Virus record (IMG/VR): IMGVR_UViG_3300047091_000002
Coordinates: 1 to 64,000 of that record
Direction: 5' to 3' (one strand)
DNA length: 64,000 nt
Origin: a virus
Position 1 is the stretch's first letter. Every line of letters starts with the position of its first letter. The notes under the pieces are model-generated. The model was not told the DNA's origin. It was given only the letters and a program-made list of their open reading frames with translations, and did not search any database. Made by a program: the position numbers and the translations under genes. Positions 20,506-37,800 of this stretch are shown in pieces.

Positions 20506-21261
20506 ATGCTTTCAGCAGTAATTGGTCTAATTACTTATAACAGACGAGGTTTACTACAAGATTGCTTGGAAAGTATTAATGCTTCAATAAAAAGCAATCG
20601 GAATGCGTTCACTATTATAGTATCCGATGACGGTTCCGTAGATGGAACTATAGAATACCTTGAAACCGAGGCTAAACCATCGCATTTGGTGGATGCGCTT
20701 ATATTAAATATGGGTAGGGGCGGCGTAGCAAGAAATAGTAATAGGATACTAGATTATTATATTGGACTTAAGGTAGATGTGCCATTATTTCTTAGTAACG
20801 ATGATCTCCTTTTTCGTTCATCGGAGCCAAATGTTTTTCAAAGGTATATAGAAGCCGCAGAAAAAACTGGATTTGGGCATTTCGTTTATACTGATCCTAA
20901 ATCTAAATATCCTTATTCATCTGAAATTGTAAATGGAATATCTATTAGAGCTAGAGAACAAGGAGATGGTGTATTTCTAATGTTTTCACGCGAGGCAATT
21001 GAAACATTAGGGGGATTTGATACTGATTTCGGCTTGATGGGAATGGAACACGTATTTTATGCGCGTAGAGCAATTGTAGCAGGCTTGATTCCTTATGTCC
21101 CAGATATTGCTGATTGTGAGTCTTTAGTCTATACTAGACAATACTACGAAAAAGTACCCAACTCTATTCCAAATAAATACGGGCATATGGCAGTTGCTAA
21201 TAAAGTATTTATAGACAAAATGAGTAATCCAGTACGAATATTTGTGCCAATAGAGGTTTAA
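20506..21261 (+). CDS. Family 2 glycosyltransferase
   Basis: 251 residues, GT-A fold. IGLITYNRRGLLQDCLESI at the start, IIVSDDGSVDGT as the nucleotide-sugar binding loop, and FLSNDD as the metal-binding acidic site. C-terminal GGFDTDFGLMGMEHVFYAR matches GT2 acceptor-side motifs. Transfers a sugar from a nucleotide sugar to an unknown acceptor. Start directly after the HNH stop. Confidence 0.85.
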   Translation: MLSAVIGLITYNRRGLLQDCLESINASIKSNRNAFTIIVSDDGSVDGTIEYLETEAKPSHLVDALILNMGRGGVARNSNRILDYYIGLKVDVPLFLSNDDLLFRSSEPNVFQRYIEAAEKTGFGHFVYTDPKSKYPYSSEIVNGISIRAREQGDGVFLMFSREAIETLGGFDTDFGLMGMEHVFYARRAIVAGLIPYVPDIADCESLVYTRQYYEKVPNSIPNKYGHMAVANKVFIDKMSNPVRIFVPIEV

Positions 21262-21263
21262 AG

Positions 21264-21427
21264 ATGGCAGAGTTATTTCCAATTCAGCGTAGAGAGTATT
21301 TTGTACTCGTAGATGACGAAGATATTCCTAGAATGACTACCGTATATGGGCAAAATTAGGCGAGTATGTCGTGACGAATATGGACGGAAAGTTAGTTGGA
21401 ATGCATAGATTCACTTGGGGTGGGTAA
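21264..21427 (+). pseudogene. AP2/homing-endonuclease N-terminal remnant, frame broken
   Basis: ATG 21264 reads 31 codons (ending FVLVDDEDIPRMTTVYGQN) and stops at 21357-21359. In the -1 frame the sequence continues WAKLGEYVVTN, MDGKLVGMHRFTWGG to TAA 21425-21427. The joined pattern VDDED-P...W...GEYVV...GK-V-MHR is that of AP2/HNH homing endonuclease N-termini. The HNH part is absent. Probably a deleted, frameshifted remnant. Confidence 0.5.
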
Positions 21428-21431
21428 TTAT

Positions 21432-22550
21432 TTGATAAAGTTTCTTCCTTCATATATTGGCTCAAAATCTTATTGGGTAAAAAAGTTGGCGAGGTTTGAA
21501 GGTCGCAACTTCGTGGAATTATTCTGCGGTTCAGCCGTTTTATCTGCTAATTTAGCATCTAGCTGTGTTCTAAACGACTTGGACCCGTTTGTTTATAAAA
21601 TTCTATCAAGATTCAACCAACAAATTGTACCTGTTCCGTTTACTGCCGATGATTATTTTCAGGTAAGAAAGTTACCAGATTGGTGGAAATATGCCTATTG
21701 TTTGCAGCGCCTAAGTTTTTCAGGTGTTTTTCGGTATTCAAAAAACGGATTTAACGTTCCTATAAAAAATAAAAATGCCAACATTGACCTATCCGAAGAT
21801 TATACAGAGGCGGTGTATCGTTGGAATCAATTGGCTCCAACTATACTCAATAGGCAATATTTTGCTTTAAATGATTTTATAAATAGTGACGTGGTACTTA
21901 TTTTAGACCCTCCTTATGAGGGGGCTCAAGCTGCCTATAATGAGACTTTCGATTTTCACTATTACTGGGAGTATGTTCGTATGAACGAAGATATTGCAAA
22001 AACTATGGTCTTATTCGACTACGAATCGAATTTACCATTTCCGGCAATGGATAAGAGAACGACACGACCTAATGGGGCAAGGACAAAAAATTCTGAAGGT
22101 ATTTTCATATTTGAAGAGTCATTGAAGTCCGGTGATTATGGAGAGCGATTATTTTTAAGTCTTAATGCTGGCAAGATTAGAAAGTCAGATACACTTTCAG
22201 TAGATTTTATACACGAATCGGGGAAGAGTATAGAGTTAAAAAGTGATTACTATGATATGACTCGTACCGATAATTTTTTTATTGAGCGCTGGTCGGACCT
22301 TAATAGAAAAACTTTAGGTGGTCCTTGGCAGGCACTAAAAAATGATGCGTATTACTATATATACTTCTTTGTAAAAAATAAGCAAGCTTTTATATTCAGG
22401 ACCGACAAATTGGTTGCATTCCTAGATAGAGTGCTTGTCGGAGATATTTATACCTTAATCAACATTCCGAACAAAAAGTGGATCACCGCCGGATATAAGA
22501 TTCCGAGAAGTCAACTTGAATCCATAACGATGGCTGTGATTAAATATTGA
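21432..22550 (+). CDS. D12-class adenine methylase fused to a nuclease-like C-terminal domain
   Basis: 372 residues from TTG 21432 (MIKFLPSYIGSK, the normal start of Dam-like enzymes). Residues 1-215: FVELFCGSAVLSANL (SAM-binding motif I) and LILDPPYEG with D159-P-P-Y (catalytic motif IV), so N6-adenine methylation is predicted. Residues 235-372 do not belong to Dam: SVDF (D258) and IELKSDYYDM (E268, K270) give a D-x9-E-x-K pattern of PD-(D/E)XK nucleases, followed by NFFIERWSD and GGPWQAL. A methylase and a nuclease in one chain suggest a compact restriction-modification enzyme, or a modification-guided nuclease. Confidence 0.75.
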   Translation: MIKFLPSYIGSKSYWVKKLARFEGRNFVELFCGSAVLSANLASSCVLNDLDPFVYKILSRFNQQIVPVPFTADDYFQVRKLPDWWKYAYCLQRLSFSGVFRYSKNGFNVPIKNKNANIDLSEDYTEAVYRWNQLAPTILNRQYFALNDFINSDVVLILDPPYEGAQAAYNETFDFHYYWEYVRMNEDIAKTMVLFDYESNLPFPAMDKRTTRPNGARTKNSEGIFIFEESLKSGDYGERLFLSLNAGKIRKSDTLSVDFIHESGKSIELKSDYYDMTRTDNFFIERWSDLNRKTLGGPWQALKNDAYYYIYFFVKNKQAFIFRTDKLVAFLDRVLVGDIYTLINIPNKKWITAGYKIPRSQLESITMAVIKY

Positions 22551-22568
22551 TGGTTCGCGCAATGTAAT
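22540..22568 (+). promoter_or_regulatory. Weaker promoter of the same 17-bp/6-base design
   Basis: TTAAAT (22540-22545, poor -35), 17 bp, TGTAAT (22563-22568), then 6 bases to an ATG (22575). That ATG opens an 8-codon leader (MSYDGGV, stop) whose Gly-Gly codons form the GGAGGTG Shine-Dalgarno of the next gene. Confidence 0.4.
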
Positions 22569-22598
22569 ATAACTATGAGTTATGACGGAGGTGTTTGA

Positions 22599-22946
22599 GT
22601 GTTACTTAGCGACAGAGAACAAGTAATAGAGAACGTAATAGAAAAATGCAAAAAAGTTCTTTTTGCAAAGGGAAAAGACTATAGCGGAGAAGAAGACTCT
22701 TTATCTAATTTCAAACGCAACGGGGATAGAATAGGACTTACAAAATATCAGGTGTGGAGTTGTTATGCAAATAAACATATAGATTCTATAAATAATTCAA
22801 TTAAGCTTAATCCAATTTTTCCGCAAGTAGAAAGCGAACCTTTGGAAAGTCGGATTATTGATGTGGTAAATTACATGTTGATTTTAGCAGCACTTCTCGA
22901 AGAAGATAAGCAAGCACAACTTGTAAAGGATCAAATAAAAGTATGA
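22599..22946 (+). CDS. Nmad1-like protein (nucleotide modification-associated domain 1, DUF1599)
   Basis: 115 residues from GTG 22599 with GGAGGTG 5 bases upstream. KGKDYSGEEDSLSNFKRNG, then CYANKHIDSI and ESRIIDVVNYMLILAALLEE match the all-helical Nmad1 family, which occurs beside phage DNA-modification genes. It resembles MazG-like folds but lacks obvious catalytic acids. Adjacent to an adenine methylase and an HD phosphohydrolase. Confidence 0.75.
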   Translation: MLLSDREQVIENVIEKCKKVLFAKGKDYSGEEDSLSNFKRNGDRIGLTKYQVWSCYANKHIDSINNSIKLNPIFPQVESEPLESRIIDVVNYMLILAALLEEDKQAQLVKDQIKV

Positions 22947-23470
22947 AAAGAAACGGCGATTGGCTCCAGACTTATACTGGAGGAGCATTTTATCCGTTAG
23001 ATCCTCATATTGATGATATTTGTATTGAGGATATAGCGCACAGCTTGAGCCAACAATGCAGATTTGGTGGACATTGCAAATTACCCTACTTCGTTGGACA
23101 TCACTCAATACTCGTATCCCAATATTGCAAGCCAGAAGATGCTTTATGGGGACTACTTCACGATGCAAGCGAAGCATATGTTGTTGACGTTCCTCGACCT
23201 TTAAAGAATCACTTGGCAAACTACGAAGAGATAGAACAAAGAGTGCAAGAAGTTATTGCCCAGAAATTCGATTTATCTATGCCTATCCCTGATTCTGTTC
23301 ACCACGCAGATCAAGTTGTTCTAGCAACCGAGGCTCGTGACTTGATGTGTGTTCCTCCAAAAATGTGGAAAATTCGGGAAATACCTATACAAAATATTAT
23401 TATTAAACCGCTAACTTCTTTAGAAACAGAGCAGGTTTTTTTAAAAAGATTTTACGAGTTGATAAAATGA
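22943..23470 (+). CDS. HD-domain nucleotide phosphohydrolase (YfbR-like)
   Basis: 175 residues. GHHSILVSQYC gives the first metal His, LLHDASEAYVVDVPRPLK the HD pair, and VHHADQVVLATEARDLM the final Asp. This is the phage 5'-deoxynucleotidase type that can adjust dNMP pools or remove host nucleotides. Coupled by ATGA to the Nmad1 gene and to the next gene. Confidence 0.82.
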   Translation: MKRNGDWLQTYTGGAFYPLDPHIDDICIEDIAHSLSQQCRFGGHCKLPYFVGHHSILVSQYCKPEDALWGLLHDASEAYVVDVPRPLKNHLANYEEIEQRVQEVIAQKFDLSMPIPDSVHHADQVVLATEARDLMCVPPKMWKIREIPIQNIIIKPLTSLETEQVFLKRFYELIK

Positions 23471-23691
23471 TACACATAACTAAAATGCCACACGAATATA
23501 TCCCTATGCTTAGAACCACAGAAAGAAGGGGTTGGTTAACCCGTAAGCATGGGTTTTATAAACACAATAAAGACTGCAAAAGATGCTATGCTGAAAGATT
23601 TGTAGCAGGATTAAAAAGAGGAGACCAAATAGTAAGAATGCCTTCTACTGGGATGGCAGAACAAGTAAGAAAGGCTTTAGGAATAAAATGA
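23467..23691 (+). CDS. Small basic protein
   Basis: 74 residues, Arg/Lys-rich, with a CKRCYAERF knuckle and several His that could hold zinc. Coupled to both neighbours by 4-base overlaps. Unknown. Confidence 0.6.
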   Translation: MIHITKMPHEYIPMLRTTERRGWLTRKHGFYKHNKDCKRCYAERFVAGLKRGDQIVRMPSTGMAEQVRKALGIK

Positions 23692-24239: not shown

Positions 24240-24256
24240 AACATGGATAAAACGAT

Positions 24257-24577: not shown

Positions 24578-24579
24578 TT

Positions 24580-24717
24580 ATGACAAAAATCCAAGAAGAT
24601 GAAATTTTACGAGAATACACAGAAGATTTAATTCGTGATGTTGACGATTTTAATGATGAACTTTCTATAGAACCATACAGGCAGCGTTGGGAGATACTTA
24701 AACAAGAAGAAGAATAA
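24580..24717 (+). CDS. Small acidic protein
   Basis: 45 codons, strongly acidic helix (LIRDVDDFNDELSIEP). TAATG overlap with the next gene. Unknown. Confidence 0.5.
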   Translation: MTKIQEDEILREYTEDLIRDVDDFNDELSIEPYRQRWEILKQEEE

Positions 24718-25037
24718 TGTTAATAAGATCCACACCAAAAAGAATATTTTGTATTCCTTGTAAACAATCAACATTAAGAAAAGGATCTAAGCAAATAGGA
24801 AACATATGGTTTTGTAAGGATTGCTTTTCACTTGTTCCAAAATCACCTAAAAAACAAAGACCTGAATTACGACAGGACAACACTACAGGCACTACTGGAG
24901 TAACACACGGTAAAACCAGAACAAGTTTTAGATCATACATAGATATAAATAAAAAAAGAACAGGTCTAGGACATTTTAAAACTTTAGAAGAAGCTGTAAT
25001 AGCCAGAAAAGAGGCGGAGAAATTATATAAATGTTGA
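24717..25037 (+). CDS. AP2-domain DNA-binding protein with zinc knuckle
   Basis: 106 residues. N-terminal CIPC and CKDC pairs form a zinc ribbon. The C-terminal half TGTTGVTHGKTRTSFRSYI, then GLGHFKTLEEAVIARKEAE follows the AP2 domain pattern (three strands and a helix) used by homing endonucleases to bind DNA. No nuclease domain is attached. It may be a stand-alone DNA-binding protein or a remnant of a homing enzyme. Confidence 0.72.
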   Translation: MLIRSTPKRIFCIPCKQSTLRKGSKQIGNIWFCKDCFSLVPKSPKKQRPELRQDNTTGTTGVTHGKTRTSFRSYIDINKKRTGLGHFKTLEEAVIARKEAEKLYKC

Positions 25038-26011
25038 CAATACTGTACTTGGGAAATTTTTCTCTAGATTATTGTACCGAGTTCCAGATTGCCGCAACGC
25101 TGGAATCAATGGGACACTCTGTAATTAGGTTACAAGAAGATATTTATAACAATACAGATGTCTTATATCAAGAAACACTAGCTAATCCTGATGTATTTTT
25201 ATATACTCGTACCCCCGGATTTTATAAAGATAATGCATTTCTTCTTCTAGAAGAATTAACTAGGAGGAATATACCAACAGTATCGTTGCATTTAGATCTT
25301 TACAATGGTTTAAAACGAGGCGAATTACTAAGCTCAGATCCTTTTTGGGCTACTGCTTTTTGCTTTTCGGCGGATGGCGGTAGCGAAGAATTTTTTAAAT
25401 CTTGGGGAGTAAATCATTTTTGGTTAAAGCCGGGGGTATACGATAAAGAATGTTACATAGCAGCCGCCGATAGAGATAGATTTCCCCATGATATAATCTT
25501 TGTAGGCAATGATGGTTCTGGGTATCACCCCGAATGGGAATACCGGAGGACTCTAACTAATTGGTTAAAAAATACGTATGGAGAAAGATTTGCGGTATAT
25601 CCCGGTACGGGGAATTCGGCTATTAGAAGTCACGATCTCAATGTTTTATACGCAAGTGCAAAAATTGCAGTGGGCGATAGTTTATGTTTAGGATTCACGC
25701 ACGAAAAATATGTATCAGACCGATTACCGGAGGGAAACTCTAGGGGCGCTTTTCAGATTTTCCCAAGAATTAAGGGAATCACAGATGAATTTGAAGATGG
25801 GAAAAATATAGTTCTTTATACATTTGGAGATTTCGACGATTTAAAATCTAAAATAGATTACTATCTTCTACACGATGAAGAAAGAGAATCAATACGAAAA
25901 GCGAGTCAACTTTATACAAGCGAAAATTGGAATTACCAGATAAGGATGACGGAGATGTTTAAAGTTTTATCAGAACAACTTCCGCAGATACGTTTAAAAT
26001 TAAGGAATTAG
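25031..26011 (+). CDS. Glycosyltransferase, CgeB/GT4-like
   Basis: 326 residues, GT-B layout. N-terminal Rossmann start TILYLGNFSLDY; second half DIIFVGNDGSGYHPEW, LNVLYASAKIAVGDSL and the donor region YVSDRLPEGNSRGAFQIFP with KGITDEFEDGKNIV, matching CgeB-like glycosyltransferases (Glyco_trans_1_2). Acceptor unknown. Overlaps the AP2 gene by 7 bases. Confidence 0.78.
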   Translation: MLTILYLGNFSLDYCTEFQIAATLESMGHSVIRLQEDIYNNTDVLYQETLANPDVFLYTRTPGFYKDNAFLLLEELTRRNIPTVSLHLDLYNGLKRGELLSSDPFWATAFCFSADGGSEEFFKSWGVNHFWLKPGVYDKECYIAAADRDRFPHDIIFVGNDGSGYHPEWEYRRTLTNWLKNTYGERFAVYPGTGNSAIRSHDLNVLYASAKIAVGDSLCLGFTHEKYVSDRLPEGNSRGAFQIFPRIKGITDEFEDGKNIVLYTFGDFDDLKSKIDYYLLHDEERESIRKASQLYTSENWNYQIRMTEMFKVLSEQLPQIRLKLRN

Positions 26012-26012
26012 T

Positions 26013-27143
26013 GTGCCTTATAAAGATAAAAGAAAGCAGCAAGAACACAGTAAGGCGTATTATTCCGCGAATCGAGAAGAAATTCGTAGAAAATATAGGC
26101 TTTATGACGACCGGATTCGGGCAATCCGAGGTACTCCTCGAAGAGAACCAAGAATTAAATCGGATGATACAATAAAGTGTTATTGTTGTAAATTGTACCT
26201 GCCAAGAGATTTCTTTAGTTCTTTAAATAATTCAAAATGCCCCGATTATTGCAAATCATGCATAAGAATTAGAAATAAAATCTTTAGAAAAAATAGAAAA
26301 ATAAGGTTGGGATTGCCGGATACATATGAGGGTAGAGATAATGGAAGATTTACATCTGCTGGAGTAAAGAGGCAATGGGAAGATTCAGATTATAGAGAAA
26401 AGATGCGATTAGCAACATCAGGTGCAAAAAATAAAAATTTTAAAGATGCAAAAAAGCAGTCACAATGTATAATATGTGGGACTTCATTTTTCTATTATCC
26501 ATCTACTAAAAATTCTACGGGCGAGTATTGCTCAAGAAATTGTATGCATAAATCCCCAAAACGTCGTGCAGCAGTTGCAAGAGCTTTAACTGGTAAGAAA
26601 TTATCCCCATCCCATATCAAATCATTACATGATTCACACGTTGGTAAATTTTTAGGTCCGAATAGCCCCACTTGGAAGGGCGGTGTCGCAAAGATGAACT
26701 GCCATATCAGAGGCTCATTCGAGTATGATAGGTGGAGAACGAGAATATTTGAACGAGATTTATATACATGCCGAGACTGCGGGGTAGTTGGTAAGAACAT
26801 TATCGTCCATCACATTATGAGGTATGCTACTATTATCGCTAAGTATAAAATTACAAATTATGCGGAGGCGGTAAAATGTAATCAGTTATGGGACATAGAT
26901 AATGGATTAACTCTTTGTAAACCTTGTCATAAGAAACTTCACACAAAAGAAACAGAAGAAAAAAGAATGTTGAAATGCATAAATGCCAGAAAATATAAGG
27001 GTATCAGGAAACCAAATTGTAACAAAGGTAATCCATGTAAATGGTGTTTGGGCATTTGGCACGAAAAACATTCTGAAATGTTATCTATTCTTTCTATATA
27101 TGAATCCAATATTGCGGAGAAATTAAATGCAGTATCAACCTGA
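26013..27143 (+). CDS. HNH homing-type endonuclease with NUMOD3-like and zinc segments
   Basis: 376 residues from GTG 26013. Modules in order: basic N-terminus, zinc knuckles (CYCC, CKSC; CIICG and CSRNC), a NUMOD3-like LSPSHIKSLHDSH, a conserved NSPTWKGG, then the HNH: FERDLYTCRDCG, IVHHIMRY, DNGLTLCKPCHKKLH. A C-terminal NCNKGNPCKWC finger follows. It sits between a glycosyltransferase and a methyltransferase gene and overlaps the latter by 17 bases. Confidence 0.83.
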   Translation: MPYKDKRKQQEHSKAYYSANREEIRRKYRLYDDRIRAIRGTPRREPRIKSDDTIKCYCCKLYLPRDFFSSLNNSKCPDYCKSCIRIRNKIFRKNRKIRLGLPDTYEGRDNGRFTSAGVKRQWEDSDYREKMRLATSGAKNKNFKDAKKQSQCIICGTSFFYYPSTKNSTGEYCSRNCMHKSPKRRAAVARALTGKKLSPSHIKSLHDSHVGKFLGPNSPTWKGGVAKMNCHIRGSFEYDRWRTRIFERDLYTCRDCGVVGKNIIVHHIMRYATIIAKYKITNYAEAVKCNQLWDIDNGLTLCKPCHKKLHTKETEEKRMLKCINARKYKGIRKPNCNKGNPCKWCLGIWHEKHSEMLSILSIYESNIAEKLNAVST

Positions 27144-27585
27144 TTGGGAAGAAAGAATGGCATTAGCCGCCAAGTGGATTCCAGAATACTCGATAGTGGT
27201 AGATTTTGGCGCTGGTAGTGGTAAATTACTTAATTATTTACCAAAAAGATGCTCGTATACTCCTTTGGATAAACTAGATTTGAATTTTAATATTGATAGT
27301 CTACCTAATATTTGTAACGATGCAACAATCGGAGTTTGTCTAGGACTACTTGAATGGTTAGATAATCCTAAAGAATTTCTTTCTAAAATGATTGCCGATA
27401 CCTTGATAGTATCTTATGCAATATTCGGACTAGATCATAATCTAGAACCTAGAGTAGAAAATGGTTGGAAAAATCATTTTAGATTAGCAGAATTAATGGA
27501 AATATTTAGAGATATAGGATATAATATAGAAGAATTTACGTGGTGGAAAGACCAGATATTGTTTAAATTAGAGAGAAAGAAATGA
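27127..27585 (+). CDS. Class I SAM-dependent methyltransferase
   Basis: 152 residues. VVDFGAGSGKLLNYL is motif I, TPLDKLDLNFN the acidic loop, and GVCLGLLEWLDNPKEFL the motif IV region of small-molecule or sugar methyltransferases. Short for the family, with a minimal C-terminal part. It lies in the sugar island, so a sugar or nucleotide acceptor is inferred. Confidence 0.78.
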   Translation: MQYQPDWEERMALAAKWIPEYSIVVDFGAGSGKLLNYLPKRCSYTPLDKLDLNFNIDSLPNICNDATIGVCLGLLEWLDNPKEFLSKMIADTLIVSYAIFGLDHNLEPRVENGWKNHFRLAELMEIFRDIGYNIEEFTWWKDQILFKLERKK

Positions 27586-28217
27586 AAACACCAAATGTAG
27601 AAATATGGAAAGATGTTATTACCTACGAAGGTATATACAGCGTTAGTTCCTTTGGAAATATTAGACGAGATTTATATTCTGGAAAAAATACAAAGGCGGG
27701 GAGAATACTTAAGCCAAGACTCAACAAATATGGGTATCCCTATTTAAACCTGTATAAAGATAAAATTCGTACCTCTATTTGTATACATAAACTTGTTACA
27801 CGAGCATTTCTTGGGGAACCCCCACAAAATTATGTGGTAAATCACAAAGATGGCAGTAAAATAAATAACACTATAGAAAACTTGGAATATTGTACGCAAA
27901 AACAAAATGTTAAACATTCTTATGACACTGGATTAAAATTTGGAAATTTTGGAGAGCGCCACGGCTCAAAAACTCATCCTGAGCGGGTGGCTAGAGGCGA
28001 AAAAAGTAGATTGAGTAAGATTAAAGAATGCGATATTCCCGTAATCTTTTCTCTTAGACGCAATGGAATGAAATTACATCAAATCGGCAATTTATTCGGA
28101 GTAAAATATCAACAAATTAGTCGGATATTGTCGGGAAAGAGCAGAAATACTTTAAACATTTACACTCCGATGTCACCACATAAAAGAAGTTATATCTCCA
28201 TACTGGAAAAGAGATGA
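27582..28217 (+). CDS. NUMOD4-HNH homing endonuclease
   Basis: 211 residues. NUMOD4 start EIWKDVITYEGIYSVSSFG with GNIRR, then KYGYPYLNLYKD, the HNH_3 core IHKLVTRAFLG, VNHKDGSKINNTIENLEYC with His, Asp and Asn in place, and a C-terminal helix-turn-helix (LHQIGNLFGVKYQQISRIL). A classic phage homing endonuclease. Coupled by ATGA to the methyltransferase. Confidence 0.88.
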   Translation: MKTPNVEIWKDVITYEGIYSVSSFGNIRRDLYSGKNTKAGRILKPRLNKYGYPYLNLYKDKIRTSICIHKLVTRAFLGEPPQNYVVNHKDGSKINNTIENLEYCTQKQNVKHSYDTGLKFGNFGERHGSKTHPERVARGEKSRLSKIKECDIPVIFSLRRNGMKLHQIGNLFGVKYQQISRILSGKSRNTLNIYTPMSPHKRSYISILEKR

Positions 28218-28363: not shown

Positions 28364-28509
28364 ATACTGTAGAATACCTTCTTTCTTGTTTAGCAGAAGA
28401 ATGCGTAGAAGTAGCGCAAAGATGTGAAAAGCTAAGAGGAGTGCCTCCGCTTGATGCACTAACCAACCCATCAAGATATAGACATCAAAAACATGATCAG
28501 CTTATATAG
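28360..28509 (+). CDS. Truncated MazG-like fragment
   Basis: 49 codons. YLLSCLAEECVEVAQRCEKL matches the first helix pair of phage MazG-like pyrophosphohydrolases (LAEECVEV-QR), including the two metal-binding Glu. The usual second half with the E--D motif is missing: the frame stops at 28509 after running 17 bases into the next gene. Probably truncated when the pyruvyl transferase gene was inserted. Confidence 0.5.
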   Translation: MNTVEYLLSCLAEECVEVAQRCEKLRGVPPLDALTNPSRYRHQKHDQLI

Positions 28510-29314
28510 AACTTTTTGCGGATATTTGTGCGGAAATTCAGGAGATCTTTCGACAGAAATACTTATTGAAAAACTGTTTGGGTTGCGTGTTCACGCGCAC
28601 GAAGATCCTCTACAATTTTCCTCTACACACATAATTGGGGCAGGTTCAGTTGCCGAAAAAATTCCGTATGGATACACTGGCTTTATTTGGGGTTCCGGTG
28701 TAATGTTCGAGAATTCTCGACCCGATACTCCAGAGGCTACTGTAATTGCCGTTAGAGGACATTTAACCAAAAGAAGGTGGTTGGGGCATCAGGCAGATAA
28801 TGCAATGGTTGGAGATATAGGGTTACTCGTAGATCGTATATTTGATAAATCTAATATTACTAAGAGATACGTAGTAGGGCTATTACCTCATTACATTGAT
28901 AGAGAAAATATGGAGGTCAGGGAATTCTTAAGAAAAAATCCAGAAACTACCAGTATTGATATATGCGGACGGTTAGATGACGTATTAAGGGCTATATGTG
29001 AATGTGAATTTATAATGTCTAGTTCCTTGCACGGATTGATATTCGCAGATGCTTTAAATACCCCTAATCATTGGATGTATCTTTCAGATCGAATCAGCGG
29101 TGGCTCATTTAAATATAAAGATTATTATTCAATTTTTAATGACTATGATCCTCTACCTTGTCTATTTAATTCTGGAATGTCAATTACAGATTTACAATGG
29201 TATGTAAGAAACTATCAGCAAGAAAGACCAAGGATAGATAAAATTAAATATGATTTGGAAAAATCCTTTCCCAGAGAACAATTATTAGAGATGATAAATG
29301 AAGACAATGATTGA
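28493..29314 (+). CDS. Polysaccharide pyruvyl transferase family protein
   Basis: 273 residues. GNSGDLSTEILIEKLFG near the start, FIWGSGVMF, AVRGHLTKRRW and the hallmark SSSLHGLIFADAL fit the family that transfers pyruvate or related groups onto sugars, with a GT-B-like fold. Rare in phages; supports a role in building or changing glycans. Starts inside the truncated MazG-like fragment. Confidence 0.82.
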   Translation: MISLYRTFCGYLCGNSGDLSTEILIEKLFGLRVHAHEDPLQFSSTHIIGAGSVAEKIPYGYTGFIWGSGVMFENSRPDTPEATVIAVRGHLTKRRWLGHQADNAMVGDIGLLVDRIFDKSNITKRYVVGLLPHYIDRENMEVREFLRKNPETTSIDICGRLDDVLRAICECEFIMSSSLHGLIFADALNTPNHWMYLSDRISGGSFKYKDYYSIFNDYDPLPCLFNSGMSITDLQWYVRNYQQERPRIDKIKYDLEKSFPREQLLEMINEDND

Positions 29315-30038
29315 TATTAGTAATTCAACAATCGAGCAACTAGGGCGGTATTTATCTAGAAAGATACGAAGAACAAAAAACAAGAAGTTAGGTCCGGGTG
29401 TATTGGCTTTTAGCCTCCCGCACGGCAGAAAAGCATCTTGTCCTTTTGCTACTGATATATGCGAATCAATTTGTTATGTAGATAATTATTCTTTTCGCTC
29501 TCCTTTAATACCAGCAAGTTATGACGAGAATTTTCAAATAGCAAAACGTAAAGACTTTGGAGAAATACTAAAACTTGCACTTTCTTATTTACCACCCTGT
29601 ATATTAAGAATACATGTATCAGGAGATTTCTTTTCCGTTGAATACATAGTAGCTTGGGCAGAAGCATTAGAGGCAAATCAACATATCAAACCTTTTGGCT
29701 TTACTCGTTCTTGGAGAGATCCGGGAATGAGAAAAACTTTTGAACGATATAATATGAATCGTTATATACTTGCCTCAACTGACTCTGAAACAGGTCCGGC
29801 TCCTAGCAACTGGAGGGCTGCTGTAATGAATCTTGATGTAAAATTAAATCAGTTGAGTAAAGGAATTCAAACTATGCCCAAATTTCTTTGTAATGAGCAA
29901 AATTTCAAGTTACAAAATACTTGTGCTGACTGCGGCAGATGTGGCTTGGTTAAGCAATCAATTAAAAATGGTAATAAACAATTTATACAACTTAGACCAA
30001 ACGCAATAAAATATGGAGTTGTATTTGCCGCACATTGA
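29298..30038 (+). CDS. GP88-like phage protein
   Basis: 246 residues. GVLAFSLPHGRKASCPFA, then ICESICYV (Cys group), LRIHVSGDFFSVEYIVAW, FGFTRSWRDP, and a late CADCGRCGL match the phage Gene product 88 family. The Cys groups suggest metal or iron-sulfur binding. Function unknown; often early or middle in phage genomes. Confidence 0.75.
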   Translation: MKTMIDISNSTIEQLGRYLSRKIRRTKNKKLGPGVLAFSLPHGRKASCPFATDICESICYVDNYSFRSPLIPASYDENFQIAKRKDFGEILKLALSYLPPCILRIHVSGDFFSVEYIVAWAEALEANQHIKPFGFTRSWRDPGMRKTFERYNMNRYILASTDSETGPAPSNWRAAVMNLDVKLNQLSKGIQTMPKFLCNEQNFKLQNTCADCGRCGLVKQSIKNGNKQFIQLRPNAIKYGVVFAAH

Positions 30039-30056: not shown

Positions 30057-30269
30057 ATGAAATCTAATAACTTACAGCGAGTAACTAGGGCTGACGCTCC
30101 TATAAAAATAGGAGAAGTTGCAGTTGTTTACTATAAATTTAATGGACTAGAAATAGATTGGGACTGTAAAATTCCGTGTGTTTGCGATGGATTCACATAC
30201 CATCATATTCACCGCGACGGGTCTACTAAATTACTACCCGAATTTATTAAATTCGGTGGACTTTATTAG
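30057..30269 (+). CDS. Unknown small protein
   Basis: 70 residues, beta-rich, with CVCDGFTYHHIH that could bind a metal. Start 18 bases after the GP88-like stop. Confidence 0.6.
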   Translation: MKSNNLQRVTRADAPIKIGEVAVVYYKFNGLEIDWDCKIPCVCDGFTYHHIHRDGSTKLLPEFIKFGGLY

Positions 30270-30270
30270 C

Positions 30271-30825
30271 ATGTTGGAATTGATCAAAACTAAAAGAACT
30301 GATGAACGATTACTTTTGAGGATGAAAAATCACTATTCCCATCCTAAAGGATTTGTGGGGCGAAATATTTGTTACGCAATAACCTATAATTCACTGTACT
30401 ACGGGCATATTGTTGGCGGATCAGCTACAAAGTTTTTAAAAGGCAGGCATGAGTTTTTAGGTACATCAAAAAATCAGTTAAACAACATTGTTAATAATAT
30501 ATTCTATAATGTAACAAAGGTGGATGGAAGTTATCCTCTTTATAACTTCACTACGCATGTGCTAAAATACTTTATAGAGAGAATATCATATGATTGGGAA
30601 GAAAAATACGGAGATGACGTACTGGGTTTTGAAACATTAATTGAAAAACCTCGTACTGGAGAGTTATATATTAAAGCTGGCTGGACAAAAGTGGGAGAAA
30701 CAATAGGCTATACTTGCAAACGAGTAGGCGGTCACGGAACTGATTCTTGGACTGGTAAAAGAATTTGGGAGACAAGATTAGAATATCTACGACCAAAGAA
30801 TATCTTATGTTTTAGAAGGATTTAA
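30271..30825 (+). CDS. DUF4338/Mom-like acyltransferase-fold protein
   Basis: 184 residues from ATG 30271, just after the previous stop. NHYSHPKGFVGRNICYAI, then YYGHIVGGSAT, LNNIVNNIFYNV, FIERISYDWEEKYG, LGFETLIEKPRTGELY and KAGWTKVGETIGYT follow the conserved order of DUF4338 (DruA-like) and Mom-type GNAT-fold proteins. Mom modifies adenine in phage DNA; DruA is part of a defence system. Next to DNA-modification and sugar genes, DNA modification is the preferred inference. Confidence 0.65.
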   Translation: MLELIKTKRTDERLLLRMKNHYSHPKGFVGRNICYAITYNSLYYGHIVGGSATKFLKGRHEFLGTSKNQLNNIVNNIFYNVTKVDGSYPLYNFTTHVLKYFIERISYDWEEKYGDDVLGFETLIEKPRTGELYIKAGWTKVGETIGYTCKRVGGHGTDSWTGKRIWETRLEYLRPKNILCFRRI

Positions 30826-31103: not shown

Positions 31104-31292
31104 ATGAATTGGATAGAAGCATATAATAGAGGACCTATTCCTTGTACTGGAAGGCATTGTGACATTTGCGGTAAGGGTGCAAGTGATATTTTTGACCACG
31201 TTTTCTGTTTAAATTACCTGGAGCGATTGGCAATATACTGGGAAAAATTTGAAAAAGATCCAACACAAAGGACTGCCATTATAAATGAATAA
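31104..31292 (+). CDS. Small Cys-rich zinc-type protein
   Basis: 62 residues. CTGRHCDICGKGA, then DHVFC: four Cys and one His spaced as a small zinc finger. Overlaps the next gene by 8 bases. Confidence 0.6.
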   Translation: MNWIEAYNRGPIPCTGRHCDICGKGASDIFDHVFCLNYLERLAIYWEKFEKDPTQRTAIINE

Positions 31293-32211
31293 AATACCTG
31301 TACTATGGCTTTATTCAAGAGGATTTGGTGATCAAGGACTGCTGATGCATCTTTTTCGAGGAGATCTTTGGAATACCCCTATAGAATTTGACGAATATAT
31401 AGTTACTCCAGATTCTCAATTGGGGGATTATATTAAATCTGAAGGTGCAATTTTAATTATTCCGGGTGGTTATGCTGCAAGTAAGGGTCAGGAATCTACA
31501 GATTTTGTGAAATCCTTACTACAACGGTATTTCTGGACGATTATTATCCATACTTCAGATGAAGAGATGGCTTTTAATAGCGAACAATTTCGTTCTGGAA
31601 ACGTAAAAACCTGGATGCAAATGTATAATCCTACTAAACATCAAGACTGTGATAGAAAAATTCTCTATTCTTGGTGGGATAATACACTAGAAACTCTAAA
31701 GAATATTCCTAGAAAACCTCTTAATGAAAGAAAACTCTGGGGGTTTGCTGGTCAAGTTACCCATAAAACTCGCAGAGAATTAGTTCAAGAATTAAGTATA
31801 AGACCAAAGGGAGAGGGAATTCTTTATTCCACAGAAGGCTTTGCTCAAGGATTACCGCAAGAAGAGTATCTTAAATTATTAACAGACGTGGCAATAGCAC
31901 CCTGCCCTTCGGGGCCATTGCACCCAGAGAGTTTCAGATGTTTTGAGGCACTGGAAACGGGTTGCCTACCCGTAGTTCAGAAAAGAGCAGAGCAATGGAA
32001 TTCGGAGTATAATTATTGGCGTTACCTAAATATTGATTCTATTATAATTCCTCAAGTAGATTCGTGGGATGAAGTTCACGATATATTGGATTTTTATAAA
32101 AATAATCCCGTAAAATTGCAACAAGCTGCAAATTTAGCAGGTTCTTGGTGGCTCAACTATAAAAGAAATCTCGTAAATAATTTGATATGCGACATAAATC
32201 AACTAAAGTAA
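31285..32211 (+). CDS. Glycosyltransferase, exostosin/GT47-like
   Basis: 308 residues, GT-B-like. WGFAGQVTHKTRRELV begins the donor domain, and CPSGPLHPESFRCFEALE with GCLPVV is the nucleotide-sugar binding region typical of exostosin-like transferases. Acceptor unknown. Overlaps the next homing endonuclease by 25 bases. Confidence 0.75.
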   Translation: MNKIPVLWLYSRGFGDQGLLMHLFRGDLWNTPIEFDEYIVTPDSQLGDYIKSEGAILIIPGGYAASKGQESTDFVKSLLQRYFWTIIIHTSDEEMAFNSEQFRSGNVKTWMQMYNPTKHQDCDRKILYSWWDNTLETLKNIPRKPLNERKLWGFAGQVTHKTRRELVQELSIRPKGEGILYSTEGFAQGLPQEEYLKLLTDVAIAPCPSGPLHPESFRCFEALETGCLPVVQKRAEQWNSEYNYWRYLNIDSIIIPQVDSWDEVHDILDFYKNNPVKLQQAANLAGSWWLNYKRNLVNNLICDINQLK

Positions 32212-32954
32212 ATAAAAACATTATATACTTACTCAGAAATAATCTAAATGGCAAATTATACATTGGGCAAACTGTTCAAGGATTTTCTGAAAGATGGTCA
32301 AAACATAAAAACGCTGCTTTTGGTTCTAGGGGTAGGTCTCTAATACACAAAGCAATTAGGAAGTATGGAAGTGAAAATTTCTCCTCAAGAGAACTTGCTA
32401 CCGTAGTATCTACTAATCCTTGTGAGTGGTTGAATATTTTAGAGGTATTTTTTATAAAATATTTTAACAGCGTCCATCCTAATGGATATAACCTACCCTA
32501 TGGTGGTAAAAATGAACAGAGAAGTCAAAAAACTAAACAAGCTCTCAGTAAGTCTTTACGTGGAAATACTAATCGAGTAGGAAAGCATCATTCTGAAGAA
32601 TCAAAAGAGAAGATAAGAATCTCCAATACTGGGAAAAGGCGGTCTTTACAGGCTCGATTAAATATAAGCAAGGCTCATATCGGATTACCGAGTAACTGGA
32701 AGGGCAGAAAACACTCGGAAGAAACTCGTTTAAAAATGAGTAGAGACAGAAAAGGTAAACGGATTGGAGAAAAACGAAAACCGCATACAGCAGAAACAAA
32801 AGCCCTGTTAAGAAGCTTAAATCTTGGTAGAGTCCCACCTAATAAAGGTGTTCCCATGTCACCGGAACAGAGATTAAAGGTAAGCATTGCAAAGAAGAAA
32901 TATTTTGCTGAGAAACGACTGCGGGAGCAACTAGATGCAAATTCAAAATCCTAA
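32187..32954 (+). CDS. GIY-YIG homing endonuclease with NUMOD3 repeats
   Basis: 255 residues. GIY-YIG nuclease: IIYLLRNN, GKLYIGQT, FSERWSKHK and a Glu in LEVFFIKYF. Then several NUMOD3-type DNA-binding repeats (GKHHSEESKEKIRIS, GRKHSEETRLKMS, KPHTAETKALLRS, PMSPEQRLKVS). A classic phage homing endonuclease wedged between two glycosyltransferase genes, overlapping both. Confidence 0.9.
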   Translation: MRHKSTKVNKNIIYLLRNNLNGKLYIGQTVQGFSERWSKHKNAAFGSRGRSLIHKAIRKYGSENFSSRELATVVSTNPCEWLNILEVFFIKYFNSVHPNGYNLPYGGKNEQRSQKTKQALSKSLRGNTNRVGKHHSEESKEKIRISNTGKRRSLQARLNISKAHIGLPSNWKGRKHSEETRLKMSRDRKGKRIGEKRKPHTAETKALLRSLNLGRVPPNKGVPMSPEQRLKVSIAKKKYFAEKRLREQLDANSKS

Positions 32955-33717
32955 GTTATCAATCATTATGCCCTGTTCGCCAATCATCAGCCACCCTAGT
33001 ACAGAGATAATAGAAGAATCTATACGACGTATTAGAGCCTATCCTGAATTAAAAGATGTAGAGATTTTAATATGTTGTGATGGAATCCGAGCAGAGCAGG
33101 AACATTATAGAGAAAATTACGAAGAATATAAACGCCGATTAATTGATCTATGTAAATTCGATTCTGATTTTAAGGGCTGTTTACCTATTATCTTTCAAGA
33201 ACATTATCACCAGGTAAAGATGCTTACAGAGGCTTTAAAGATGGTAAAAACTCCTCTTATATTCTTTGTAGAGGCAGATACTTTCCCTATAAGAGAGATA
33301 GATTTCTCAAGTATTATTAACTCATTTGAAGACCCTAGAGTTAATTATATTAGATTAAGTATCTTCGACCATATTCTAGGTGAACACTCACATTTATATT
33401 TTGGAGAATTGGAAAGTATCCAGGGATGTCCTTTACTAAAGACCTCTCAATTTTCGGCTCGTCCTAATATAGCAAGAAAAGAATGGTACGAGAAACTTAT
33501 AGAAGAATACTTTGATGGTGATTGTATCTGTTTTGTAGAAGATATAATAGACCCCCAAGCTCAAATCTCTATTAGAGACAGTACAAAACCATTTGATTAT
33601 TGGGGAATGTATCTATATCATCCAGATACAAAAGATATTACCCGTTCTGCGACTAATAACGGAAGAGGATCAGAGTCGAAGTATTTCCAAAGATTTCCAA
33701 ATAAGGTTGACAAATAA
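32935..33717 (+). CDS. Glycosyltransferase, GT2/GT-A-like
   Basis: 260 residues. LSIIMPCSPI start, ILICCDGIRAEQEHY, and FFVEADTFP as the probable metal site fit a GT-A transferase. The rest is divergent. The promoter -35 box of the next gene lies in its last codons. Confidence 0.7.
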   Translation: MQIQNPKLSIIMPCSPIISHPSTEIIEESIRRIRAYPELKDVEILICCDGIRAEQEHYRENYEEYKRRLIDLCKFDSDFKGCLPIIFQEHYHQVKMLTEALKMVKTPLIFFVEADTFPIREIDFSSIINSFEDPRVNYIRLSIFDHILGEHSHLYFGELESIQGCPLLKTSQFSARPNIARKEWYEKLIEEYFDGDCICFVEDIIDPQAQISIRDSTKPFDYWGMYLYHPDTKDITRSATNNGRGSESKYFQRFPNKVDK

Positions 33718-33735: not shown

Positions 33736-33744
33736 GATAGTACC

Positions 33745-33951: not shown

Positions 33952-33997
33952 GATTAATGCAACGCAAGCACCTATACTTTAGAATTTAAAAGCCTTT

Positions 33998-34312: not shown

Positions 34313-34314
34313 GC

Positions 34315-34503
34315 ATGATTAAAAATATAAAATCATTATGGAAACAACTACGCTGTCCGCACACTAGAACAATTAAATATTATCCCGTAAATGATAGCGT
34401 AGATTGGCGTTCTTTTGGAAAATCAATGGGTAAAATTCGCGGCGTACTGTTTGAAGGATGTTTAAATTGCTATAAAGTATCTGTAAGAAATTATATGGAG
34501 TAA
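34315..34503 (+). CDS. Unknown small basic protein
   Basis: 62 residues with CPHT and CLNC, a possible zinc site. Starts 2 bases after the previous stop. Confidence 0.55.
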   Translation: MIKNIKSLWKQLRCPHTRTIKYYPVNDSVDWRSFGKSMGKIRGVLFEGCLNCYKVSVRNYME

Positions 34504-34504
34504 C

Positions 34505-34750
34505 ATGAATAACAGATTTTTAACAATGGCTAAACAATTAGCAAAATCAGAAATGCCTTTATGCGGATGCGATCATCAATTAGGTTGTCTTCTATGTGAT
34601 TTTGATTTTAATTATGGTGAAATTAGTGGTTACTACAAAAATGATATATTGTACAATAGCATAGATTCAATGGCAGGGGTAGTAGAAAATCATAACGAAG
34701 ATTGTCCTTGGAGATTAGCTAAAGAACTGCAAAAAGAAGAATTAATTTAA
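34505..34750 (+). CDS. Small Cys/His protein
   Basis: 81 residues. CGCDHQLGCLLCDF, then HNEDCPWRLA: a recurrent phage zinc-type pattern with a terminal H...CPW motif. Function unknown. Confidence 0.6.
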   Translation: MNNRFLTMAKQLAKSEMPLCGCDHQLGCLLCDFDFNYGEISGYYKNDILYNSIDSMAGVVENHNEDCPWRLAKELQKEELI

Positions 34751-34752
34751 TT

Positions 34753-35184
34753 ATGAAACCAACAAAAAATACAATAGCATATAATGGATTAGGGTTTCTC
34801 GGATTAATTACCAAAGATGAACAACAAGAAGTAGAATTTCCAGATGGTACTAAGGCTCTAGCTTGGGTAGGTATACATCTTACTGATACTAAAGACCATT
34901 TTCCAGGAGATTTTTGGTACAGTAGAGGTCCAGAAATTGTAGGATTTTTACCTGAACCGGAAAGGTATAAGTTTGAGAGCGACGGTGATGGGCATCGATA
35001 TTTAATTCCGATTGAAAAATCCGAAGAATTTGATAGATGGACAGATCATGAATCACGCCTCTGGTATCCTGGAATATCCGATGAAGACTTTGAAAAAGAA
35101 AAAGAATCGTATAACGGAGAAGATTTTAATAATTTTGTTATAGATAGCGTAAATGATTATACATTTGAAAATCCAAAGAAATAG
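34753..35184 (+). CDS. Unknown acidic protein
   Basis: 143 residues, strongly acidic, with WVGIHLTDTKDHFPGDFW and GPEIVGFLPEPERY, a pattern met in other phages but without known function. Starts 2 bases after the preceding stop. Confidence 0.6.
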   Translation: MKPTKNTIAYNGLGFLGLITKDEQQEVEFPDGTKALAWVGIHLTDTKDHFPGDFWYSRGPEIVGFLPEPERYKFESDGDGHRYLIPIEKSEEFDRWTDHESRLWYPGISDEDFEKEKESYNGEDFNNFVIDSVNDYTFENPKK

Positions 35185-35186
35185 AA

Positions 35187-35360
35187 ATGATAGAAGATAA
35201 AGATAATTTATTTTATAAATGTCCTTCTTGCGACGACGTATATGGCAGTTGGCTCGAAGGTAGAAACTGCTGTGATGTCATTTTAGTATATCAATGTAGA
35301 AACTGCGAAATGCTGTACGAAGATTCAGATAAAGCAGAAGAATGTTGTCAAGATAAATAA
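35187..35360 (+). CDS. Zinc-ribbon protein
   Basis: 57 codons. CPSC, CC, CRNC and a terminal CC in an acidic protein; two CxxC pairs form a likely zinc ribbon. Starts 2 bases after the preceding stop. Confidence 0.55.
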   Translation: MIEDKDNLFYKCPSCDDVYGSWLEGRNCCDVILVYQCRNCEMLYEDSDKAEECCQDK

Positions 35361-35373
35361 TAAAAGGAAAATA

Positions 35374-35571
35374 ATGCCACACGATAAAAATGGAAATAGT
35401 TTAGAAGTTGGAGATCACATAATAATAGAGGGAATAATTTCTCAAGTTTTTACCGGGGAGGAATATTGCAATATTAATGTAGAAACACTTGAGCCGATGT
35501 TTCCCGGAACTAATAAATCATTGTTAACACTCAATGCAAAACAAGTTAAACGGGTTGTCAACGGCGCTTAG
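35374..35571 (+). CDS. Small conserved phage protein, SH3/KOW-like
   Basis: 65 residues with AAAAGGA before the ATG. PHDKNGNSLEVGDHIIIEG, then GEEYCNINVETLEPMFPG is a common small phage beta-barrel pattern. Function unknown. Confidence 0.7.
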   Translation: MPHDKNGNSLEVGDHIIIEGIISQVFTGEEYCNINVETLEPMFPGTNKSLLTLNAKQVKRVVNGA

Positions 35572-35584
35572 ATAAAATTAATAA

Positions 35585-36499
35585 ATGCTCATTACTATAA
35601 TAAGTAATTTACAATCGAATAAAGGCTTGTCAGTTGATTGTAGACTTGTCAGAGGGCTTCTAGAAGAATGGGGACATACTATAACAGAATGGGATTTTAG
35701 ATCTACTCAATTACCACTTACAGCAGATCTTAACATATTTCTGGAAGTAGTGGTTCCCTTCTTCTTTTCTTCTGCTCAAAGAAACTGGCTATTTGTAAAT
35801 CCTGAATGGGTAGTAGAAGATTATATTCCTCATTTGCCTAGACTAGATAAAATACTTTGTAAAACCAGATACGCGGAACGACTTCTATCTCCTAAATATC
35901 CAGAACAAGTATTTTACACTGGCTTTATAGCGGAAGACCACTTAGATTCGGAGATATATAAGTCACGGATATTCTTTCATAATGCCGGAGATTCTATTAT
36001 TCGTGGAACCGATGAATTAATACAGGCGTGGGAAAAATATAAATTTTCTTACCCTTTAATTATTGCCTCGCAGAATCATCACGGACCCAGTACAAATCCA
36101 AATATTAAATTTGTAGGAAGATTAGAAAGACAAGAATTGCTGGATAAACAAAATAGCTGTTTATTCCACGTTTTAATGTCAGAAAGTGAGGGATTTGGAC
36201 ACTCGCTGCACGAGGGTCTAGGATGTTCTGCAATTGTAATTACTACGAATGCCGCTCCAATGGCCGAATTCTGGGGATGCCCTAAAGAATTAATGGCTGA
36301 ACCAGTTTCCTCTTATAAACTTAGGATGGCAGATGCTTATAAAGTTTCTGCTGATAACATAGCAATTGCAGTAGAAAGAACTTGGTATCTAAATTCTGAT
36401 TTTATCAAACTGTATCAGCAGCAGGCTAGAGAATACTTTCTTCAAACTAACGGCACATTTAAGGAAAACTTCAAGAGATTAATTGACGAGATATGCTAG
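35585..36499 (+). CDS. Family 4-type glycosyltransferase
   Basis: 304 residues, GT-B. IFFHNAGDSIIRGTDELIQAW opens the donor domain, NIKFVGRLERQEL follows, and SESEGFGHSLHEGLGC with VITTNAAPMAEF is the classic E-x7-E nucleotide-sugar site. Acceptor unknown. Overlaps the next gene by 7 bases. Confidence 0.85.
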   Translation: MLITIISNLQSNKGLSVDCRLVRGLLEEWGHTITEWDFRSTQLPLTADLNIFLEVVVPFFFSSAQRNWLFVNPEWVVEDYIPHLPRLDKILCKTRYAERLLSPKYPEQVFYTGFIAEDHLDSEIYKSRIFFHNAGDSIIRGTDELIQAWEKYKFSYPLIIASQNHHGPSTNPNIKFVGRLERQELLDKQNSCLFHVLMSESEGFGHSLHEGLGCSAIVITTNAAPMAEFWGCPKELMAEPVSSYKLRMADAYKVSADNIAIAVERTWYLNSDFIKLYQQQAREYFLQTNGTFKENFKRLIDEIC

Positions 36500-36684
36500 A
36501 AGATAAAGAAACAGTTTCTACAATAGCGAAACGATATTTTTATCCTTGGGATCACAAGAAGAATGGAAATTTTCCTAAACAAGAAATACGAGATATTCAT
36601 GCATTAATAGATACTATTTTCATACAAGAAGAAATAATTAAGAGATTGCAGGAATTACTAGGAGATACAAATTATGGGAGATAG
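36493..36684 (+). CDS. Unknown small protein
   Basis: 63 residues, helical, charged. Overlaps both neighbours by a few bases. Confidence 0.6.
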   Translation: MLEDKETVSTIAKRYFYPWDHKKNGNFPKQEIRDIHALIDTIFIQEEIIKRLQELLGDTNYGR

Positions 36685-37039
36685 GGCAAACGTAAAATTT
36701 ATAGAACAAGATGGAACTAGTTTATTTTTATATACGCATTGGCGCGGTAGTGATTTACCTGAAATAATACAATCGGCATTAAGTCACAAACAACGTTGGG
36801 ATGATGAACAATACTTAGCGCGTATAATATTTTGCGAAATGATAAAAGGCGATGAGTCTGGGCATTCCGGCTTTGGTATTTCCACATATTGTGGCGATGG
36901 AGATGATAAAATACTTGAAATAAACGTTTCTAACCAACAGGTTGGTATTAATGAAAATCTATATAGTTTCAATGATTATGTTAAATTAAAATTATCTGGA
37001 AATAGGGGATGGAGTGTTCTACGAGGTTGCAGAAAATGA
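36674..37039 (+). CDS. MGDRANV-family conserved protein
   Basis: 121 residues. Begins MGDRANVKFIEQDGTSLFLYT, the hallmark of a small family in phages, bacteria and archaea, continuing with HWRGSDLP and FGISTYCGDGDD. Function unknown. Confidence 0.75.
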   Translation: MGDRANVKFIEQDGTSLFLYTHWRGSDLPEIIQSALSHKQRWDDEQYLARIIFCEMIKGDESGHSGFGISTYCGDGDDKILEINVSNQQVGINENLYSFNDYVKLKLSGNRGWSVLRGCRK

Positions 37040-37800
37040 ACTTGATTGTAATTCCTTGTTTTCGTAGACCGGAATTCTTGGCAATATGTCTCGAAGAAAT
37101 AGCTAAAGCTGAGAACTCTAATCAATACTACTATTTATTTTGTGCTGATGAAGGCTATGATCCGACTATAAGAGATGTGCTTAAAAATTTTCCTCTCAAA
37201 TGGAAATTTAGCGAATTACGAGATAAAATTGATATTGGTAATAATCAAAACGTCTTGGAAGGACTTCGTTGGGGATTTCTATGCGCTTTAAATAGTGGGG
37301 CTTCTACAGTACATTTAATAGAAGAGGATGTGATTATCTCTAAAGACTATTTTACATTTCATGAAGAGGCTCAAAAAAGATTTGAGAATAATCTAGCTAT
37401 TTTTGCTATAATAGGCTCTACTTCGCAACAAGCAACAGATCTATACTTTGATCCTAAATATTCTGATAGTTCAAGGTATCAAGGAATAGGAGTATCCTTT
37501 AATCTAAAAAATCTTAATAAAGTTATTCGACATTGTAATAATTTCTATTATGAAGATCCTCAAAACTATTTAAGAGCTACATTTCCCAGCAGTAAATATC
37601 CTCTTAATCTATATACTCAAGATAGACTTATAGATAGAATAATTGAAAGAAATAATATGCATTGTATTTATCCTGGTTTATACCCCGCAGTAGCAAAGCA
37701 TTGCGGTTATTACGGAATGAACCATTCCGGTTGTGAATTACAGGGAACTTTAGAGCAGAAAATAAATCAATTTAGAAATTATGTTAACGGTAAATTATAA
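37036..37800 (+). CDS. Glycosyltransferase, GT2/GT13-like
   Basis: 254 residues from ATG 37036 (ATGA overlap). LIVIPCFRRPEFLAICLEEI start, FCADEGYD, and HLIEEDVIISKDYFTF as the acidic metal site resemble GnT-I-like GT-A enzymes. Last carbohydrate gene of the island. Confidence 0.75.
   Translation: MNLIVIPCFRRPEFLAICLEEIAKAENSNQYYYLFCADEGYDPTIRDVLKNFPLKWKFSELRDKIDIGNNQNVLEGLRWGFLCALNSGASTVHLIEEDVIISKDYFTFHEEAQKRFENNLAIFAIIGSTSQQATDLYFDPKYSDSSRYQGIGVSFNLKNLNKVIRHCNNFYYEDPQNYLRATFPSSKYPLNLYTQDRLIDRIIERNNMHCIYPGLYPAVAKHCGYYGMNHSGCELQGTLEQKINQFRNYVNGKL

Follow-up and report, generated by a model that had tools for sequence, protein, structure and literature searches.

The virus record IMGVR_UViG_3300047091_000002 of IMG/VR comprises 119,487 bases, of which bases 1-64000 form the stretch analysed here (the window); around positions 20,506 to 37,800 of this window, genes for sugar transfer are interspersed with genes for homing endonucleases. 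An exact 127-base repeat is common to both ends of the record, which therefore represents a complete, circularised phage genome of ~119,360 bases, so that the absence of a gene can be read as an absence at the sensitivity of the profiles used. Judged from its open reading frames (ORFs), the left 38 kb holds the genes for replication and the sugar stretch, all on the + strand; from 38.5 kb onwards, the - strand encodes the late genes. All seven carbohydrate genes proposed in an earlier reading of the bare letters (the original prediction), i.e. six glycosyltransferases (GTs) and one pyruvyl transferase, were recovered in their places as open + strand ORFs backed by Pfam, homology and structure models, the start formerly given as 37036 being an in-frame internal Met, and a possible alternative start, of the ORF that opens at 37009. 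The homing enzymes at 19762, 26013, 27582 and 32187 do adjoin or overlap genes of the sugar stretch, as had been claimed, and a fifth piece (24717-25037) joins them. Along the window, these features are:

19762..20505, + strand: HNH/endonuclease VII-like homing-type endonuclease (PHROG 1035, E = 1.8e-16; Pfam marginal)
20506..21261, + strand: GT-A (GT2) glycosyltransferase (PF00535, E = 1.5e-9)
24717..25037, + strand: HNH/AP2-type endonuclease fragment, C-terminal half only (PHROG 99, E = 5.6e-13)
25031..26011, + strand: GT-B glycosyltransferase that heads the conserved core (PF13524, E = 1.9e-16)
26013..27143, + strand: HNH homing-type endonuclease between GT 25031 and methyltransferase 27127 (PHROG 1271, E = 3.8e-12; PF13391, E = 7.8e-4)
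27127..27585, + strand: small S-adenosylmethionine (SAM) methyltransferase (PF13489, E = 2e-5, just under the cut-off)
27582..28217, + strand: NUMOD4 plus HNH_3 homing endonuclease (PF07463, E = 1.4e-12; PF13392, E = 1.9e-10)
28493..29314, + strand: polysaccharide pyruvyl transferase family protein (PF04230, E = 5.4e-10)
31285..32211, + strand: first (N) half of the conserved GT pair, GT-B, exostosin/A075L-like (PF24785, RXYLT1_C, E = 8e-7)
32187..32954, + strand: free-standing GIY-YIG/NUMOD3 homing endonuclease (PF07460, E = 3e-19; PF01541, E = 6e-6; PHROG 314, E = 1.6e-33)
32935..33717, + strand: GT-A glycosyltransferase carrying an ExD motif, second (C) half of the conserved GT pair (homology to the C half of the fused ORF on contig L002; structure model)
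35585..36499, + strand: GT-B (GT4-like), upstream member of the second conserved pair (PF00534, E = 3e-7)
37009..37800, + strand: GT-A-type glycosyltransferase, downstream member of the second conserved pair (gp48 of phage JustBecause, E = 4e-34)

The key feature of this locus is that GTs 31285 and 32935 are the two halves of one conserved unit, separated in the window by an endonuclease. A search with GT 31285 led to a related contig (L002) on which a single ORF of 576 amino acids consists of a 31285 homologue (30% identity over 327 columns), a short linker and a 32935 homologue (36.5% over 252). Alignment-based scans then yielded 83 IMG/VR loci, each on a contig of its own, although some of these contigs are nearly identical, and the 32935 type lies directly downstream of the 31285 type in every one (83/83), fused to it in 8 and in overlapping ORFs in the other 75, most commonly with an overlap of 8 bases; the scan reported 124 relatives, of which 80 were kept, and the family is thus larger than these 83 loci. 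Nothing stands between the halves in any of the 83 contigs. For the core, the proposed check, whether these sugar genes occur in related phages free of endonucleases, thus gave a positive answer. Four phage-like contigs from genome collections also hold the pair (L095, Nocardia asiatica; L096, an Acidimicrobiia metagenome-assembled genome (MAG); L097, a Heimdallarchaeota MAG; L098, an uncultured bacterium), and the fused form occurs in two genome-collection contigs. On L098, a 62-amino-acid ORF (6438-6626) separates the GT halves and an HNH homing-type endonuclease (3785-4231) lies elsewhere in the sugar operon, which makes L098 another example of this operon with insertions. An endonuclease at the junction of the pair itself was seen only in the window, where 32187-32954 overlaps 31285 by 25 bases and 32935 by 20 bases. 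Both window GT domains are nevertheless complete and keep all residues that are invariant in 33 relatives; in GT 32935, E113-x-D115 is invariant. In a tree built from the concatenated halves the window groups with the fused forms, and fusion of the two halves likely preceded insertion of the endonuclease.

No cultured phage record was found with the N half (queries from the window, L002 and L028) or with the C half, and none of 50,697 phage records matched the pair. Megablast of the DNA against phages gave no match, and IMG/VR scans with single proteins (polymerase, GT 25031 and terminase as queries) returned no relatives, whereas the alignment-based scans succeeded. The pair and its interruption appear to be undescribed in the literature searched; phage GT clusters and endonuclease-split genes are general kinds already known. 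Two cellular-looking contigs, L099 (a Rhodospirillales MAG) and L100 (Synechococcus), carry a distant homologue of the first GT half without the second, and these lone homologues possibly mark the cellular root of the GT family.

What would the two halves do together? The AlphaFold model of GT 31285 is a GT-B fold (predicted local distance difference test score, pLDDT, 88.5), with the EXT1/EXT2 heterodimer (Foldseek E = 1.5e-6) and AO75L (E = 2e-5) among its best solved neighbours, and that of GT 32935 is a GT-A fold (pLDDT 87) with many GT2-like neighbours; at E ≤ 0.001 the latter matched 226 PDB chains, and among the matches listed nearly all are GT-A enzymes. In exostosins, too, a GT-A domain comes after a GT-B domain, and this shared layout suggests that the 31285/32935 pair may add two sugars in turn. 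EXT1/EXT2 are the best solved fold neighbour of 31285, but 32935 matches GT2-like GT-A proteins first and not the exostosin C-terminal domain. Among family profiles, GT 31285 reaches 29.1 bits against PF24785 (RXYLT1_C; cut-off 27) and 21 bits against PF03016 (exostosin/GT47; cut-off 33.4), and GT 32935, with 16.8 bits against PF00535 (GT2; cut-off 23.3, E = 0.0066), is accepted as a GT because of its profile relatives and its GT-A model. The chlorovirus protein A075L (GT114), a capsid N-glycan xylosyltransferase (PMC11571054), resembles 31285 in being virus-encoded and of GT-B fold, and is among its best solved neighbours by profile and by fold; by contrast, it is a lone enzyme and shares only ~13% identity with 31285 in the structure alignment, so that family membership is not established.

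The endonuclease between the halves comprises a GIY-YIG catalytic domain and four NUMOD3 stretches. Free-standing endonucleases of T4 overlap their upstream ORFs by 20 (segC), 23 (mobA) and 24 (mobC) bases (PMC2988022), close to the overlap of 32187 with 31285, and endonuclease insertions that split phage genes with activity kept are represented by Aeh1 mobE in nrdA and T4 mobA in gene 60 (PMC2988022). As in these cases, the endonuclease ORF of the window lies between two intact pieces that form one gene in some relatives; unlike them, it is a GIY-YIG/NUMOD3 enzyme in a GT locus, placed at an inter-domain linker, with an ancestral fusion that is likely but not proven. A group I intron around 32187 was ruled out, an Rfam scan of the window at gathering thresholds having returned no match at all.

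The conservation extends beyond the pair. In the relatives, a compact operon starts with a 25031-type GT and an FkbM-type methyltransferase, optionally continues with an epimerase, a de-N-acetylase-like gene, a GT2 or further methyltransferases, and ends with the 31285/32935-type pair followed by another GT-B. The 25031 type lies upstream of the pair in all contigs that carry it (54/54) and in 30/30 contigs with enough upstream sequence, and GT 25031 of the window matches a profile of 54 relatives at E = 3.4e-95. The small methyltransferase of the original prediction, weakly confirmed as listed above, occupies the position held by methyltransferases in the relatives, although orthology is not demonstrable (a single cluster of the relatives matched it, weakly, at E = 0.001). 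From the start of the 25031 type to the end of the pair, the relatives span a median of 3.9 kb versus 8.7 kb in the window, in whose core endonucleases and other genes intervene. Given the conserved order 25031-31285-32935 and the adjacency of the pair, the window 'island' is an expanded version of this compact phage glycan operon. Contrary to the word 'shuffled' in the original prediction, the sugar genes of the core do not stand in random order.

The joints of this expanded operon are tight. Endonuclease 19762 abuts GT 20506 without a gap, the fragment 24717-25037 reaches 7 bases into the beginning of GT 25031, a single base separates 25031 from 26013, and overlaps of 17 bases (26013/27127) and 4 bases (27127/27582) follow. 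Of the nine endonuclease genes of the genome, five are direct neighbours of a gene for a sugar enzyme or a methyltransferase (P = 0.0003), as are five of the six in the early arm alone (P = 0.002); both values come from gene-position permutations with gene sets picked after inspection of the data and are therefore indicative only. The association of a multi-enzyme sugar-decoration set with homing endonucleases is accordingly supported, and we regard the anatomy, a conserved set of phage genes for sugar chains with mobile endonucleases lodged at the joints, as nearly certain.

The other sugar genes have relatives of their own. GT 20506 resembles gp97 of the Cheoctovirus mycobacteriophage Doug (blastp E = 2e-13), and its type occurs in 321 phage records, 314 of them from Mycobacterium. 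GT 25031 is similar to gp32 of Streptomyces phage Wentworth (E = 9e-42), and GTs 35585 and 37009 to the adjacent gp47 (E = 5e-38) and gp48 of Streptomyces phage JustBecause; both Streptomyces phages, in contrast to the window, lack the 31285/32935 pair and any endonuclease between their GTs. The Pfam match of GT 37009 is weak (PF13641, E = 0.024), and it is accepted as a GT because it is homologous over nearly its full length to GTs annotated in Streptomyces phages. Relatives of pyruvyl transferase 28493 are found in phages Tunturi_5, Carin-5 and Lak. The claim of at least four fold types stands only in the sense of four Pfam families, since just two GT folds (GT-A and GT-B) are represented besides the pyruvyl transferase. 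A recent foreign origin of the GTs was rejected on composition, their G+C content (GC) and that of third codon positions (GC3) fitting the neighbouring genes.

Which molecule, then, would receive the sugars? The original prediction left this open. The operon of the relatives runs into the gene for the terminase large subunit in the seven relatives checked, and on L002 it continues to the portal and the major head protein. The 35585/37009-type pair lies just ahead of tail genes in Streptomyces phages, and the 25031-type GT of Wentworth comes after a lysin gene and a 4.3 kb gene. Together with the occurrence of the 20506 type in Cheoctovirus, the position of the operon at terminase and head genes and of the second pair at tail genes favours a virion protein as the acceptor, which we consider probable on this evidence from gene context and relatives; a glycan of the host surface would come next and DNA last.

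The core of the locus, formed by GT-B 25031 and the pair 31285/32935, is an operon conserved across many uncultured phages, and the second GT pair 35585/37009, the mycobacteriophage-type GT 20506, the pyruvyl transferase and the methyltransferase complete the set. If the genes are expressed, nucleotide sugars from the host would be added sequentially to a structural protein of the phage (capsid or tail), the 31285/32935 pair performing two additions, one after another, and methyl and pyruvyl groups might cap or charge the sugar chain, the resulting coat shielding or tuning the particle. The endonucleases, for their part, may cut the empty junctions in co-infecting relatives and so spread themselves together with flanking sugar alleles. 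Taken as a whole, an expanded phage glycan-assembly locus that decorates the virion, with endonucleases at its junctions, is the explanation we favour with reasonable, though not high, confidence.

A close experimental parallel comes from Cheoctovirus, in which Che8 and Rita were reported with capsid glycans (Freeman et al. 2023, as cited in PMC11256854). Che8 resembles the window in having several GTs (gp108-110) in its non-structural right arm with an HNH gene (gp112) close by, and relatives of GT 20506 occur in its phage group. It differs in its set of GTs, which are three in number and include no 25031 type and no 31285/32935 pair.

Several observations weigh against decoration of the virion by an expanded operon. 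The sugar locus of the window belongs to the early arm and is distant from the head genes, although the GTs of Che8, too, lie in its right arm, next to an HNH gene. The usual substrates of pyruvyl transferases are surface polysaccharides. Che8 gp108-110 have no blastp match to the window GTs, the match in that group being Doug gp97. Window GT 35585 matches the last (third) GT of the relatives only weakly (E = 4e-5), on contig L068 the terminase gene lies ~20 kb from the pair, and the window forms the longest branch of the tree, which is why the ancestral fusion is taken as likely and no more.

The strongest competing explanation is that the sugars are put onto the host surface, whose glycan would be remodelled during infection, blocking superinfection or rebinding of progeny to debris. 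Its appeal lies in the pyruvyl transferase and the FkbM methyltransferases, which are typical of polysaccharide loci, in the early position of the window locus and in the superinfection role proposed for GTs of freshwater actinophages (PMC10202952). However, scanning of the GT proteins revealed none recognisable as a flippase, a polymerase or a membrane-anchored GT, the operon adjoins head genes in close relatives and the 35585/37009-type pair is found among tail genes, so that we regard this explanation as rather unlikely.

Modification of phage DNA with sugars that protect it from restriction, as in T4 or hypermodified phages, appears considerably less probable still. Two enzymes that the original prediction had named in the sugar stretch are in keeping with it: the adenine methylase, which is confirmed as D12 (E = 7e-8), and the HD phosphohydrolase, which belongs to the deoxyribonucleoside 5'-monophosphate phosphatase family (PHROG, E = 7e-68). 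Virus GTs that place diverse glycans on DNA have also been reported (Pyle 2024, as cited in PMC12619734), and a protective role was proposed for actinophage GTs (PMC10202952). Against this, and in agreement with the original prediction that no dedicated base-synthesis enzyme is visible, profile searches whose positive controls worked detected neither the thymidylate-synthase family (PF00303, which includes hydroxymethylases) nor a C5 cytosine methylase (PF00145) anywhere in the complete genome; among seven large relatives the former was present in none and the latter in one. A search for TET/JBP (PF12851) was also empty, though its control gave no match either. Finally, a chance gathering of unrelated GTs and endonucleases in a permissive early region, with no joint pathway, is the least probable of all: unrelated small genes are indeed interspersed, blastp detects no relationship among the seven carbohydrate genes and further endonuclease genes are present elsewhere in the genome, but the order and strand of 25031-31285-32935 are kept in dozens of phages, a second pair is conserved as well and the permutations, post hoc as they are, place endonucleases beside sugar and methyl genes more often than expected.

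Returning to virion decoration, it is tempting to go one step further and regard the pair as a new, widespread two-domain phage GT that builds the sugar chain of the virion by two successive additions and that an endonuclease has turned into a two-subunit enzyme, the joints of the operon being homing sites; this extension is tentative, and we doubt that all of it will hold. Nevertheless, a conserved glycan operon with a GT-B plus GT-A pair is now defined in at least 83 environmental phage contigs, and the window provides a natural experiment in which the conserved pair has an endonuclease wedged at its linker. Two questions thereby become testable. Does a glycosyltransferase that has been cut in two keep working? 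And is the exchange of sugar genes between phages driven by homing endonucleases?

Among the neighbouring genes of the sugar stretch, two further labels of the original prediction did not survive: Nmad1 (22599) finds no support in any profile library used, and neither does the DUF4338/Mom-like label in Pfam, NCBIfam or PHROG. The gene to which the latter referred is listed here as an orphan:

30178-30825, + strand: orphan 215-amino-acid protein (no profile match)

Its Mom-like reading was rejected, tblastn against phages being empty as well and the PDB matches amounting to antibody noise. Just upstream, a GP88-family protein of unknown function lies within the sugar stretch (29298-30038, +; PF17338, E = 2.5e-18).

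Outside the sugar stretch, tblastn with the terminase as query returned no match. An ORF at window positions 5055-5327 (-) ends in GAGFEPATLPAFTERATESNRSQPGCLR, wording of the kind typically seen when RNA genes are spuriously translated; neither a tRNA nor an Rfam match was found at this site. An IS605/TnpB-type transposase gene in the early arm (window 6279-7385, +; PHROG 506, E = 3.6e-104) represents an additional mobile element. Two short SpoU-family RNA methylase-like proteins are encoded at genome positions 95661-96122 (L004:11661-12122) and 115894-116220 (L005:11894-12220). The proteins at genome positions 97514-98404 and 100288-100743 (L004) have in common a repeated motif, SLAGT...KWQVP, recognised by eye, and are followed by a tyrosine/dual-specificity phosphatase-type gene at genome positions 100880-102436.

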